Assembly (NCBI RefSeq): GCF_000746085.1
Contig: NZ_JQKO01000008.1
Coordinates: 1-64,000 of the forward strand
DNA from: Methylocapsa aurea
GTDB taxonomy: Bacteria; Pseudomonadota; Alphaproteobacteria; Rhizobiales; Beijerinckiaceae
Length of the DNA: 64,000 nt
Direction of reading: 5' to 3'
Shown here: one piece after another, positions 3,063 through 8,200 of the stretch
Numbering within the stretch: the stretch's first letter is position 1
How the letters are laid out: each line of letters begins with the position of its first letter
The notes under the pieces: model-generated
Told to the model about the DNA's origin: nothing
Database searches by the model: none
What the model saw: the letters and a program-made list of their open reading frames with translations, nothing else
Made by a program: the position numbers and the translations under genes

Positions 3063-3404
3063 GCGGGCTTGTCGCCCGCCTTGTGCTGCATTGCAAGAGA
3101 AAGGATCGCGAGAAGCTACGCATCATTCTCCGCGACGCAGGGACGAACCCGCCAATTTTTCGGCCGCCGGCTGGATTTATCGCCGGATTTTATTCCTCCT
3201 CCTCCGCCGTGCGACCCTATGCCGCTCGGCGCAATGGCCAACGGGATCAACCCACGGAGCGGAGCAAGGGCTCGAAAGTGGTAAAGGTCCAAAGCGCCTC
3301 TTGCTCGAATGCGGGACTATGGTTAGAATGATTCTAAGCCATCGCCCCTCGCATTACGCGGGAGCACTGGCTTTTGTCCTGTTTGGTTTGAAGGGAGTGT
3401 GGAT
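3063..3404. other. Promoter region of the rubrerythrin operon
   Basis: This gap separates the divergent ABC-F and rubrerythrin genes. The one clear signal is the Irr-type palindrome at 3323-3337. Short reading frames in the gap look like noise. AAGGGAG at 3391-3397 is the ribosome binding site for the rubrerythrin gene. Confidence 0.6.
3323..3337 (+). promoter_or_regulatory. Candidate Irr box (ICE) upstream of rubrerythrin
   Basis: TTAGAA (3323-3328) and TTCTAA (3332-3337) form a perfect inverted repeat spaced by TGA, about 68 bases before the rubrerythrin start. This matches the iron control element bound by Irr, the haem/iron-responsive Fur-family regulator of Rhizobiales. It implies iron-dependent control of the whole downstream operon. 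No irr gene lies in the window. Confidence 0.7.
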
Positions 3405-3827
3405 ATGGCAGCGCTTGGTGGCAGCAAGACCGAAGGCAATCTGAAGGACGCCTTCGCCGGTGAATCGCAAGCGAACCGACGGTATCTTTATTTCGCACAA
3501 AAGGCGGATGTGGAAGGCTATAACGACGTCGCCGCGGTGTTCCGTTCGACGGCTGAAGGCGAAACCGGCCATGCCCATGGCCATCTCGAGTTCCTCGAGG
3601 CGGTCGGCGATCCCGCCACCGGCCTGCCGATCGGCGAAACCTCGCTGAACCTCACCGCCGCCGTCGCCGGCGAAACGCATGAATATACCGACATGTATCC
3701 GAGCATGGCGCGCACCGCCCGCGAGGAAGGTTTTGGCGAGATCGCCGATTGGTTCGAGACGCTCGCCAAGGCCGAGCGTTCGCACGCCGGCCGTTTCCAG
3801 AAGGCTCTCGACGAGCTGCCGAAGTAA
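3405..3827 (+). CDS. Rubrerythrin (ferritin-like di-iron protein, no rubredoxin domain)
   Basis: Rubrerythrins are four-helix di-iron proteins that reduce hydrogen peroxide using electrons from a redox partner. The 140-residue product carries the expected carboxylate and histidine ligand motifs: ESQANRRY near 18-25, [10 protein letters not shown] in the middle, and a final [11 protein letters not shown]. There is no C-terminal rubredoxin, so electrons must come from another protein; the Fe-S protein encoded next is an obvious candidate. I chose ATG 3405 over GTG 3399 because AAGGGAG sits eight bases before it. An Irr-type box lies upstream and a hairpin follows at 3853-3882. Confidence 0.93.
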
Positions 3828-3852
3828 TCGGCCGAACACTTAAAGTCATCCG

Positions 3853-3888
3853 ACGGCCCGGCTCATCCGCGAGCCGGGCCGTTCTTTC
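3853..3888 (+). terminator. Rho-independent terminator or attenuator after rubrerythrin
   Basis: ACGGCCCGGCTC (3853-3864) pairs perfectly with GAGCCGGGCCGT (3871-3882), followed by TTCTTT. It sits between the rubrerythrin gene and the Fe-S protein gene, so it probably gives excess rubrerythrin transcript with some read-through. Confidence 0.8.
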
Positions 3889-3920
3889 CCAGCGTTTCAT
3901 CCAGCTTAGAAGAAGGCGAC

Positions 3921-5279
3921 ATGAGCGAAGGCGGTCTGGCAGCTCCCTCCCGGCATCCATTGGATTGGCAAAATCCCGATTTTTATGACGAGGCCAAACT
4001 CGACGCCGAATTGCGGCGGGTGTTTGACATTTGCCATGGCTGCCGCCGGTGCTTCAATCTATGCGATTCCTTCCCGCGCCTTTTCGACCTCGTCGACGCT
4101 TCGAAAAGTGGCGAATTGGACACGGTCGACAGCAAGGATTTCAAGCCTATCGTGGATGCCTGCACGCTCTGCGACATGTGCTACATGACGAAATGCCCCT
4201 ATGTCCCGCCGCATGAATTCAATCTCGATTTTCCGCATCTGATGCTGCGCTATCGCGCCGTCGAAGCGAAGAAGGGCGAGATCGCGCGCCCCGAACGCGA
4301 GCTGGCTCAAACCGACCGCAATGGCAAACTCGCCTCTTACGTCGCGCCGCTCGCCAATTTCGTGACCAATAGCGCGAACAAGATGATGCGCGGCCTGCTT
4401 CAGAAAATCGCCGACCTCGACAAGGAGGCCTGGCTGCCGAAATATGCATCGAAGAGCTTCGAGGAGCGCGCCAAGGAAAAACCGCCGCTCGTCAACGCCC
4501 ATGCTCCGGCCGCGGGCCGGAAGGCGGTCATCTACGCGACCTGCTTTGCCAATTACAACGAGCCCGACATCGGCCTCGCCGCCCGTGCGGTGCTCGCCAA
4601 GAACGGGGTCGAGACGCAAGTGCTGCATCCGCATTGCTGCGGAATGCCGATGTTGGAGCAAGGAAATATCGCGGAAGTCGCGAAGGCCGCCAAGATTGTC
4701 GCCTCTGAGCTGCGTCCCTGGATCAGAAAAGGCTATGACATCGTGGCGCTGGTGCCCTCTTGCGCCTTGATGCTGAAGACCGAATGGCCGCTGATCCTGC
4801 CCGATGACGCCGACGTCAAGATGTTGTCGAAGGCGACCTATGATCTCAGCGAATATGTCGTCGGCATCGCCCGCAAGGAAGGCCTCGCGCCGGGACTGGC
4901 GCCGGTCGCCCCGGGCGGCATAGCCCTGCATATCTCCTGTCATTCGCGGGCGCAGAACATGGGCCAGAAGGCGCGGGAGCTGTTGAAGCTTTTGCCGGAG
5001 GCCAATTTGCAGGTGATCGAGCGCTGCTCCGGCCATGGCGGGTCTTGGGGGTACAGATCCGAGAATTTCGAAACCGCCCTGAAGGTCGGCGCGCCGGTGG
5101 CCCGACAGGTCGTTGAGGGCGGCAAAGCCATCGTGACCTCGGAATGTCCGCTGGCTGGCCTTCATATCGCGCAAGGCGTCGAACGGCTCGGCGGCGGCGA
5201 AGGCAAGCCGCAGCTCTACAACCATCCGATCCAGCTCGTGGCGAAGGCCTATGGCCTCGACCAGGAGTCTGGCGCGTGA
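3921..5279 (+). CDS. CCG-domain Fe-S protein, heterodisulfide reductase/GlpC-like
   Basis: This 452-residue protein resembles the Fe-S subunits of heterodisulfide reductase and GlpC. Two ferredoxin-like cysteine clusters lie at residues 38-48 (C38, C41, C44, C48, in CHGCRRCFNLC) and 81-92 (C81, C84, C87, C92). Two CCG-type cysteine-rich domains follow, marked by HPHCCGMPM and by CSGHGGSWG. It is soluble, with no membrane anchor. AGAAGG precedes the ATG. It lies between rubrerythrin and DUF3501 on the same strand. That arrangement, as I recall it, recurs in many proteobacteria, and suggests an electron-transfer role to the di-iron protein. The substrate is unknown. Confidence 0.85.
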   Translation: MSEGGLAAPSRHPLDWQNPDFYDEAKLDAELRRVFDICHGCRRCFNLCDSFPRLFDLVDASKSGELDTVDSKDFKPIVDACTLCDMCYMTKCPYVPPHEFNLDFPHLMLRYRAVEAKKGEIARPERELAQTDRNGKLASYVAPLANFVTNSANKMMRGLLQKIADLDKEAWLPKYASKSFEERAKEKPPLVNAHAPAAGRKAVIYATCFANYNEPDIGLAARAVLAKNGVETQVLHPHCCGMPMLEQGNIAEVAKAAKIVASELRPWIRKGYDIVALVPSCALMLKTEWPLILPDDADVKMLSKATYDLSEYVVGIARKEGLAPGLAPVAPGGIALHISCHSRAQNMGQKARELLKLLPEANLQVIERCSGHGGSWGYRSENFETALKVGAPVARQVVEGGKAIVTSECPLAGLHIAQGVERLGGGEGKPQLYNHPIQLVAKAYGLDQESGA

Positions 5280-5369
5280 TCGATGTGAATTAAAGCTATC
5301 TTGCTTGAACCATCGCGCCGGAAGAGTCTTGCCGGCGCCGCGTCCGGTCATCGACCTCGGAGCTGAAAC

Positions 5370-5960
5370 ATGGCGCAAAAACACAATCTGACGGCGGCCG
5401 ACATCCTGCCGCTCGCGGAATATGGAAAGATACGCGCGGAAAGCCGCCGCAAGATCTCCGAGCGCAAACAGAATCGGCGCGTCGAGGTGGGGCCTTACAT
5501 CACCTTCTATTTCGAGAATTACGACACGATGTGGATGCAGGTCCATGAGATGGTCTTCATCGAAAAAGGCGGAGACGCGCAGATTCGAGACGAAATCGCC
5601 GCCTATAATCCGCTGATCCCCAAAGGCCAGGAACTCGTCGCCACTTTCATGATCGAGATCGAGGATCCTGAGCGGCGCAAACGCATACTCGGCGCCGTGG
5701 GCGGCATCGAGAATGCCGCCTTCATCGCGATCGGCGCGGAGCGCATTCCCGGCTTGGCGGAGGAAGATCTGGAGCGCACGCGCGCCGATGGAAAGGCCTC
5801 CTCGGTCCAATTCGTGCATTTCGCCTTTACGCCGGCGCAGATCGCCGCGTTCCGCAGCCCCGGCGCGCAAATTTCGCTTGGGTTTTCGCATCCGTCCTAC
5901 GGTCATATGGCTGTGTTGCCGGACGCCGTGCGCGCTGAACTGGCCGGCGATTTCGATTGA
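5370..5960 (+). CDS. DUF3501 family protein
   Basis: The 196-residue product matches my recollection of DUF3501 (segments ILPLAEYGKIRAESRRKI and GPYITFYFENYDTMWMQVHE). It has no signal peptide, membrane segment, or cysteine cluster. Its function is not established. It follows the Fe-S protein on the same strand after a 90-base gap that contains a small hairpin (GCGCCGG 5315-5321 / CCGGCGC 5332-5338). CTCGGAG before the ATG serves as ribosome binding site. Its constant partnership with rubrerythrin and the CCG-domain protein points to one pathway in peroxide or iron handling. Confidence 0.8.
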   Translation: MAQKHNLTAADILPLAEYGKIRAESRRKISERKQNRRVEVGPYITFYFENYDTMWMQVHEMVFIEKGGDAQIRDEIAAYNPLIPKGQELVATFMIEIEDPERRKRILGAVGGIENAAFIAIGAERIPGLAEEDLERTRADGKASSVQFVHFAFTPAQIAAFRSPGAQISLGFSHPSYGHMAVLPDAVRAELAGDFD

Positions 5961-6132: not shown

Positions 6133-6687
6133 ATGGTCAGAATTGGATCCAAGGTTCCGAGCTTTTCCGTCATCGGCGTCAAGCCGGGTTTCGAGACGCA
6201 CGAAGAAAACGGCGTCAGCGCCTTCGAGACGCTCACCGAAGCGAGCTTTCCCGGCAAGTGGAAGATTATTTTCTTCTATCCGAAGGATTTCACCTTCGTC
6301 TGCCCGACCGAGATCGCCGAATTCGCGCGGCTCAACGCGGAATTCGCGGATCGCGGCGCGGTCGTGCTCGGCGGTTCGACCGACAATGAATTCGTCAAGC
6401 TCGCCTGGCGGCGCTCGCATAAGGACCTCGCCAAGCTGCCGATCTGGCAATTCGCCGATACGAATGGATCCTTAACCGATGGTCTCGGCGTCCGCTCGCC
6501 CGATGGCGTCGCCTATCGCTATACGTTCATCGTCGATCCCGACAACGCGATCCAGCATATCTACGCCAATAACCTCAACGTCGGCCGCGCGCCCAAAGAC
6601 ACGCTGCGCGTGCTCGACGCCTTGCAGACGGACGAGCTTTGCCCCTGCAACCGCGAGGTCGGCGGCGATATTCTCCTGGTCGCGTGA
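6133..6687 (+). CDS. ahpC: Alkyl hydroperoxide reductase C, peroxiredoxin (AhpC)
   Basis: AhpC reduces hydrogen peroxide and organic peroxides in the cytoplasm. The 184-residue protein has the peroxidatic cysteine C57 in FTFVCPTE. Further cysteines C170 and C172 lie in [11 protein letters not shown], the CPC-type resolving site of the AhpC/AhpD branch. That fits the adjacent ahpD, seven bases downstream, which replaces the AhpF flavoprotein as reductant. AAGGA lies before the ATG, and a candidate OxyR operator lies upstream. Confidence 0.95.
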
Positions 6688-6694
6688 GGCGCAA

Positions 6695-7234
6695 ATGTCG
6701 ATTGAAAGCCTGAAAGACAGGATTCCCGACTTCGCCCGCGATGTCCGTCTGAACCTTTCCGCAATCGTCAATGACGATGCGCTGGGCGAGGAGGCCAAAT
6801 ACGGGCTCCTGCTCGCCTGCGCCATCGCCACCCGCAACGCGGATGTGGCGCAGGCTTTCGATCGGGAGGCGGCCTCGCGTCTCTCGCCGGCGGCGCGGGA
6901 TGCGGCGCGTTCGGCCGCCGCGATCATGGCGATGAACAATGTCTATTATCGATTTGTTCATCTGGCCTCGAACAAGGCCTATCGGACGATGCCGGCGAAG
7001 CTGCGGATGTCGGTGATCGGCGCTCCTGGCGTCGCCAAGGCGGATTTCGAGATCTGGTGCCTCGCGGTCTCGGCGATCAATGGCTGCGGCGCTTGCATCG
7101 ACGCGCATGAAAAGGTCCTGGCGGCGGCGGGCGTGAGTCAGGAAGCGATCCAGTTCGCGGTGCGATGCGCCTCGATCGTTCAATCCGTCGCCGTCGCCAT
7201 TGAGGCCGCCAGCCTCTCGGTCGAACACGCATGA
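6695..7234 (+). CDS. ahpD: Alkyl hydroperoxidase D (AhpD)
   Basis: AhpD reduces oxidised AhpC, passing electrons from lipoylated or dithiol donors. The 179-residue product has the catalytic CxxC with nearby histidine: C131, C134 and H138 in [11 protein letters not shown]. It is all-helical in composition, as expected for the carboxymuconolactone decarboxylase-like fold. I start at ATG 6695, which places it immediately after ahpC; the upstream in-frame extension only reads ahpC in another frame. It is probably co-transcribed with ahpC. Confidence 0.94.
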
Positions 7235-7255
7235 TCCATGGGGTCGCCCAACGTC

Positions 7256-8200
7256 CTATCTAAACGCATTTTCAAGCGAACCGAGGACGGCCTCGCTTGA
7301 AAACGCCGTCGGGATGGCGTTTCGGATCAATTCGGCGAGCGCCGCGATTGCGGGCCGGCGCGGATTGGTCGCCCGGCAAATGAGGCGAACGCCGCGCGAG
7401 GCATGCGGCCCCTCGATCCGTCGCGCGGTCAGATTGCCGGGAAGGCCGCGCGCGTCAAGAAGAGCGAGGCCCGGCGCCAGAGTCATGCCGTAGCCCGCCG
7501 CGGCCATATGCAGCAAGGTTTGCAGGCTTGTCGCCCGCATGTCGGCCATGGCGTCGTCGCCCAGATTGGGATGCTGGCAGAGGTCCAGCGCCTGATCGCG
7601 CAGGCAATGCCCGTCCGCGAGCAGCAAAAGGCGATGCGGATCGATGTCCTCCGCCTCGACGCTGGCGCGGCGCGCGAGCGGATCGTCATCCGGCAGAACC
7701 AGAAAAAAGGGCTCATCGAACAAGGGCAGGGCCTCGAGCGCGGCATTTTCCGGATCCGAGGCGATGATGGCGGCGTCGAGTCGGCCAGAGGCCACAGGCT
7801 CGATCAGCCGCTCCGTCAAATCCTCGACGAGGAGCAGGGGCGTCGCCGGCATGGCGTGGCGCGCGCGCGGCAGAATGAAAGGCATCAGATAGGGGCCAAG
7901 CGTTGGAATGACGCCGAGACGCAAGGGGCCGACCATCGGATCGCGGCAGGCTTTGGCGCAGGCGAGAAGGTCATCGGCGGCGGCGATGGCGCGCCGCGCT
8001 TGAGCGAGTATCTGCTCCCCGGCGGCCGTCGTCGCGATCGATTTGCCGACCCGCTCGAAAATGCAAACCCCGAGCTCTTCCTCTAATTTCAGGATCTGGC
8101 CGCTCAAGGTCGGCTGGCTGACATGGCAGGTGGCGGCGGCGCGGCCGAAATGGCCAAGATCGGCGACGGCGATAATGTAACGGAGGTCGCGCAAATTCAT
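7256..8200 (-). CDS. oxyR: Hydrogen-peroxide-sensing LysR-type regulator OxyR
   Basis: This 314-residue LysR-family protein has an N-terminal winged helix-turn-helix (MNLRDLRYIIAVADLGHFGR, then CHVSQPTLSGQI) and a periplasmic-binding-protein-like sensor domain. Two cysteines in GHCLRDQALDLC fall at residues 199 and 208, the same positions as the redox pair of E. coli OxyR, which supports peroxide sensing rather than a generic LysR. It is convergent with ahpC-ahpD and ends 22 bases from ahpD. AhpC-AhpD is the expected target. Confidence 0.93.
   Translation of the reverse strand: MNLRDLRYIIAVADLGHFGRAAATCHVSQPTLSGQILKLEEELGVCIFERVGKSIATTAAGEQILAQARRAIAAADDLLACAKACRDPMVGPLRLGVIPTLGPYLMPFILPRARHAMPATPLLLVEDLTERLIEPVASGRLDAAIIASDPENAALEALPLFDEPFFLVLPDDDPLARRASVEAEDIDPHRLLLLADGHCLRDQALDLCQHPNLGDDAMADMRATSLQTLLHMAAAGYGMTLAPGLALLDARGLPGNLTARRIEGPHASRGVRLICRATNPRRPAIAALAELIRNAIPTAFSSEAVLGSLENAFR

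Follow-up and report, generated by a model that had tools for sequence, protein, structure and literature searches.

Sequence conservation points to Irr control of the aerobic-type rubrerythrin operon in Alphaproteobacteria

Introduction

The aerobic-type rubrerythrin system consists of three co-localised genes, encoding a rubrerythrin (RBR), an Fe-S protein (RFO) and a DUF3501 protein. Cardenas 2016 (PMC5114695) counted all three genes in 185 genomes and reports the system in Alphaproteobacteria, among others. A predicted mitochondrial three-component system is made up of the same trio (PMC7050145). The main text of Cardenas 2016 (PMC5114695), searched by word, says nothing of Irr, Fur, a regulator, a promoter or transcription. 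Ferriperoxin, the single-domain rubrerythrin of Hydrogenobacter thermophilus, is described as a peroxidase needed for aerobic growth, which in vitro reduces peroxide with NADPH and ferredoxin:NADPH oxidoreductase (FNR), without RFO (PMC3317640). In this host, RFO is encoded away from the rbr and DUF3501 genes (Cardenas 2016, PMC5114695). The closest known systems to RFO itself are EtfD, LutA, HdrB and GlpC.

A second point of comparison is the Irr (ICE) regulon of Bradyrhizobium, Rhodobacter and Brucella, which is known to control iron-rich and peroxide-defence proteins, among others. Irr is a leading example of a heme-sensing Fur-family protein, and its place of origin is unsettled. One 'rubrerythrin-like' target in this regulon, blr7895, has been likened to the membrane-bound ferritin MbfA, a different protein from the rubrerythrin considered here. 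Whether Irr activates or represses is said to depend on where its box lies (PMC7762939), and at Rhodobacter mbfA a box at the transcript start goes with repression (PMC3413700).

Results

A known gene trio behind an Irr-type box

In the window (the whole stretch of DNA analysed, 64,000 nucleotides from Methylocapsa aurea), one locus carries the following features:

3301..3306, + strand: possible −35 element TTGCTC, weak (3 of 6 positions), 17 nt before TAGAAT
3323..3337, no strand: ICE/Irr-type box TTAGAAT-G-ATTCTAA, a perfect 7-1-7 palindrome (TTAGAATGATTCTAA; exact match)
3324-3329: −10-like TAGAAT in the left half of the Irr-type box
3405..3827, + strand: rbr, single-domain (rubredoxin-less) rubrerythrin, 140 aa (PF02915, E 7e-30)
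3852..3883, + strand: G+C-rich hairpin in the rbr-rfo gap, 13-bp stem and 6-nt loop (z −3.64)
3921..5279, + strand: RFO, a COG0247-type Fe-S protein, 452 aa (PF02754)
5370..5960, + strand: DUF3501 protein, 196 aa (PF12007, E 5.4e-60)

The palindrome, the three genes and the hairpin were all present where a sequence-only reading of this DNA had placed them. The window shares the co-localised genes of the aerobic-type system: its rubrerythrin lacks a rubredoxin domain and retains the conserved E/H residues, and the adjacent genes encode a COG0247-type RFO and a DUF3501 protein (PF02754, PF12007). The same reading had called the three-part system undescribed; that holds for how it is regulated and for what RFO and DUF3501 do, but not for the gene set, which had already been named as aerobic-type rubrerythrin, RFO and DUF3501 (Cardenas 2016, PMC5114695). 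The trio is thus a known set, and what is added here is the Irr box, the linkage to irr and a promoter flip. We regard the last two as the notable results; the portions of the literature surveyed, which did not include Rodionov 2006, held no mention of either.

Genomes with DUF3501 numbered 22 of 149 in the window's family, 25 of 398 in its phylum and 186 of 385 in its class, and three sets of loci were compared. Set A comprises 40 loci taken from the DUF3501 matches in the family and the phylum. Set B is the best 80 named loci by DUF3501 similarity from a longer list, of which 71 were used in counts. Set C holds 59 loci from the class search, mostly one per family among the matches listed and chosen regardless of similarity to the window; 57 were usable, from ~55 alphaproteobacterial families. 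The sets share some genomes and so are not independent (for example, the B/C pairs L177/L119 and L236/L120). Box counts in sets A and B cover 111 loci, the window among them, in which at least 200 nt precede rbr.

As the sequence-only reading had expected, the neighbourhood is kept in relatives, with the order rbr-rfo-duf in all 39 set-A loci that hold rbr. At L173:4079-5079, rbr is followed directly by the DUF3501 gene, with RFO absent between them and irr upstream. Downstream of the window's operon (6133-8200) lie an ahpC-like gene, ahpD and, beyond these, a divergent oxyR-like gene, a neighbourhood not seen in the 40 other set-A stretches. In five loci from the window's family or order (L060, L063, L069, L074 and L078), RFO is 43-46% and DUF3501 36-43% identical to the window's, and both resemble those of other classes. 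Given this low identity within the same family or order, the two genes were probably gained there by horizontal transfer.

RFO as a candidate electron donor

By sequence, the PDB relatives of the window's rubrerythrin include 9onm, 4di0 and sulerythrin (1j30). The DUF3501 protein was modelled with high confidence (AF2, pLDDT 94.8), has a solved relative (3fjv) and contains no conserved Cys. The RFO model (AF2, pLDDT 91.1) has a fold resembling LutA, EtfD and HdrB. Its motifs comprise two 4-Cys cubane-type sites, one 4-Cys CCG domain and one degenerate CCG domain, so the 'two CCG domains' claimed earlier exist in the predicted fold, with the second lacking its usual cysteines. On the pairing suggested by motif order, the first CCG domain has C208, C239, C240 and C281 without the final Cys, and the second only C340, C369 and C409, with S370 and H372. 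The motif reads CCG in the first domain and CSGH in the second, so an HdrB-type CC pair is not found in both. Across 55 sequences, C369, G371 and H372 are invariant and S370 is nearly so.

Two further annotations of RFO were rejected. As GlpC it scores below the curated cut-offs (198.1 versus 278 and 123.6 versus 279.9 bits). As EtfD it lacks the membrane part with the heme and quinone site, and aligns only to EtfD residues 252-747. Compared with mycobacterial EtfD (9ojn, PMC13083937), RFO is the protein without its membrane part and heme, the alignment starting at residue 252. EtfD carries a linear [3Fe-4S] and a noncubane [4Fe-4S] cluster; because the first CCG domain of RFO has no final Cys and the second is reduced to C340, C369 and C409, the predicted clusters of RFO cannot match these.

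Ferriperoxin, single-domain like the window's rubrerythrin, differs in being reduced by NADPH and FNR in vitro (PMC3317640). Since it works with this pair, a donor role for RFO is not proven; we infer that role, as we do the function of DUF3501. RFO might instead not be the donor at all, with FNR or another reductase serving rubrerythrin while RFO and DUF3501 help to assemble or mend the di-iron site, or work with a different acceptor. We find this a doubtful but serious contender: the reduction of ferriperoxin (PMC3317640), the 25 organisms reported to have rbr and DUF3501 without RFO (Cardenas 2016, PMC5114695) and the adjoining rbr and DUF3501 genes of L173 would fit it, but in almost every locus seen the RFO gene comes after rbr, and RFO has the fold and the cluster motifs of an electron carrier.

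Similar G+C-rich hairpins occur between rbr and rfo in 76 of 111 loci (sets A and B), against 6.3% of shuffles, and 24 loci have a T-run behind the hairpin. In our reading, it would either stabilise mRNA or partly terminate transcription, to the advantage of rubrerythrin; that the genes of the operon would be expressed at different levels, as first suggested from the hairpin, is plausible only.

The box is conserved, and irr commonly precedes rbr

The box, initially given as TTAGAA-TGA-TTCTAA, is better read as the 7-1-7 palindrome TTAGAAT-G-ATTCTAA; such a palindrome is the form of PerR and Fur boxes. The pattern TTAGAANNNTTCTAA has a single match in the 64-kb window, the box before rbr, and two in the genome. 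A box with at most one mismatch precedes rbr in 59/111 loci of sets A and B (shuffles ~0.05), comprising 18/40 in set A and 41/71 in set B (shuffles 0.01 and 0.04); with at most two mismatches, the count is 73/111 (shuffles ~1.0). Seven control palindromic patterns of the same length gave no match at up to one mismatch in sets A and B. In set C, the box was found in 32/57 loci at up to one mismatch and 45/57 at up to two. The proposed Irr-type box before the first gene is therefore conserved in relatives, in all three sets, and as in the Irr (ICE) regulon it lies near the promoter.

Boxes were also seen elsewhere. The second perfect box of the genome (G000:C1:160479-160493; L002:1501-1515) is flanked by TonB-receptor-like and PepSY-like genes, as judged by eye from translations, and a one-mismatch box lies 84 nt further on. 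Another one-mismatch box (G000:C10; L008:1501-1515) lies ~76 nt before one of the genome's three irr paralogues, making autoregulation of this gene possible. In a SAR11 locus (L174:2030-2065), a one-mismatch box is also found directly before the irr start codon. The exact box TTAGATTGATTCTAA is common to L060, L069 and L093, the last from another class.

In 58 of the 111 loci, rbr has irr upstream of it in the same orientation, with gaps of 97-285 nt. This arrangement occurs in 5/40 loci of set A, all outside the window's order, and 53/71 of set B. It also occurs in 50/57 loci of set C, from ~55 families; here the gap was 108-334 nt in 47 loci and 397, 526 and 679 nt in three, where a gene in between is not excluded. 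The 37 rbr-linked regulators scanned and the three window-genome paralogues all matched the NCBIfam IrrA and Irr models (40/40; ranking against PerR and Fur models covers the first member of the 40 only). The two His of an HxH pattern are among the invariant columns of the alignment of these proteins.

Promoter order differs between the window's family and other groups

We compared promoters in the 73 loci with a box at up to two mismatches, 52 outside the window's family and 21 inside. Outside it, TTGAC begins at +15 to +25 from the box start in 49/52 loci, usually at +19 to +21, and a −10-like hexamer follows after another 16-18 nt; inside, this was seen in 0/21. The three exceptions are L078, from the same order, and L093 and L094, from other classes. 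Conversely, TTGRC or TTGGA at −25 to −3 from the box was found in 14/21 loci inside the family and 1/52 outside. The window is not among the 14, its −35 TTGCTC being weak: TTGCTC-17-TAGAAT matches 8 of 12 positions, below the threshold of a generic promoter scan, which does not list it. Relatives have stronger promoters, such as TTGACA-18-TTGAAT (L057) and TTGACT-18-TAGAAT (L071), and L059 is likewise stronger. Of the 50 set-C loci with irr ahead of rbr, 39 have TTGAC no more than 15 nt beyond the box.

In the window's family, the −10 thus appears to fall within the box. By the computed spacing, the box centre would be near −47 outside the family, and the box would overlap the −10 inside it. 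A box next to the −35 suits activation by Irr, and a box over the −10 is a repressor position. For Candidatus Pelagibacter ubique, a small (1.57-fold) rise of the rbr transcript (SAR11_0399) under iron limitation is reported (PMC2864753). In SAR11 loci L174 and L176, irr adjoins rbr and the box precedes TTGACA; the rise is as expected for such an upstream site, with SAR11_0399 taken as the putative rbr of this operon.

Irr control could also have the same sign everywhere, namely repression at low iron, with the box before the −35 serving as an operator too. Repressors are able to act just upstream of a −35, Irr may repress or activate by box position (PMC7762939), and Rhodobacter mbfA, whose start lies inside the box, is repressed (PMC3413700); however, box position splits cleanly between the two groups and the SAR11 transcript goes up, not down, under iron limitation (PMC2864753), leaving a uniform sign unlikely.

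The box is found with Irr

The Fur-family proteins found in the window genome are three Irr-type proteins, all above the NCBIfam IrrA cut-off and one also above the Irr cut-off, and one Zur-like protein. Irr is thus encoded in the genome, as in members of the Irr (ICE) regulon. Across sets A and B, the box (up to two mismatches) was present in 71/87 genomes with an Irr homologue and 0/22 without (P = 3.6e-13, Fisher exact test, uncorrected for kinship), a pooled comparison that leaves out two genomes with weak Irr matches, in which related genomes are non-independent and draft genomes may hide irr. In set A, a strong Irr match (E 7e-32 or better) was found in 28/40 genomes, 22 of them with the box; 6/28 lack it at up to two mismatches, which counts against Irr control of the operon. 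Irr was not found in 10/40, none with the box. The two weak matches (35% and 32% identity), G358 and G449, are from other classes and carry boxes with one and two mismatches, respectively. In set B, the box was present in 44 of the 53 loci with irr adjoining rbr; in the other 18 genomes, Irr was encoded elsewhere in 6 (box in 5/6) and not found in 12 (box in 0/12).

The motif ATAG-N7-CTAT, which we take to be that of OxyR, occurred at up to one mismatch in 13/22 loci without Irr versus 16/87 with Irr, some of the latter matches overlapping the Irr-type box itself; shuffles gave ~6/111 (sets A and B). Within the window's family, genus g29 and relatives contribute four loci (L062, L072, L097 and L098) in which rbr is preceded on its own strand by an oxyR-like gene; the box is absent at up to two mismatches from the first three, and L098 has a two-mismatch box.

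It is improbable that another regulator, such as a PerR-like Fur-family peroxide sensor, binds the box and makes the operon answer peroxide rather than iron: its 7-1-7 form, its presence with only a 35% or 32% identical Fur-family protein in the non-alphaproteobacterial G358 and G449, and the frequent OxyR-like motif where Irr was not found would suit this, but the window genome's Fur-family proteins are Irr types and one Zur-like protein, all 37 rbr-linked regulators match Irr models, and genomes lacking Irr also lack the box, although in a variant of this alternative the Irr-type proteins themselves could be the peroxide sensor here.

Discussion

Box conservation, co-occurrence with Irr and physical linkage to irr bear out the earlier suggestion of iron-linked regulation, and at the level of sequence Irr control of the rbr operon is strongly supported. 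In the reading we consider probable, a peroxide-reducing aerobic-type rubrerythrin operon, rbr-rfo-duf3501, would have been placed under the heme/iron sensor Irr. Without heme, in an iron-poor cell, Irr would bind the box. In most Alphaproteobacteria, where the box lies 4-6 nt before the TTGAC −35, Irr would help polymerase and activate the operon under iron shortage. In the window's family, irr would have moved away and the box would lie over the −10, such that Irr would shut off transcription under iron shortage and free the operon once iron and heme are plentiful. Rubrerythrin would reduce peroxide at its di-iron site, most likely with electrons from RFO, a soluble relative of EtfD, GlpC and HdrB; DUF3501 would probably be an adaptor or maturation partner of rubrerythrin, and the hairpin behind rbr would keep its mRNA in excess over rfo and duf3501.

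We also put forward, tentatively and with slightly less than even confidence, that irr began in Alphaproteobacteria as a PerR-like local regulator dedicated to an irr-rbr-rfo-duf3501 cluster and took on global iron regulation in rhizobia only afterwards. The window's family would then have lost the linkage, the box shifting, specifically in this family, from a place ahead of the −35 to one covering the −10 and changing from an activator to a repressor site; an OxyR-type box would have replaced Irr where it was lost.

The linkage of irr to rbr over ~50 sampled loci would point to peroxide defence as an early job of Irr, and with the promoter flip the same operon would be expected to respond to iron in opposite ways in two bacterial groups. 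RFO and DUF3501 gain a regulatory context and a testable partner. With an Irr box on the operon and irr directly ahead of it in most alphaproteobacterial loci examined, its control by iron is directly testable.
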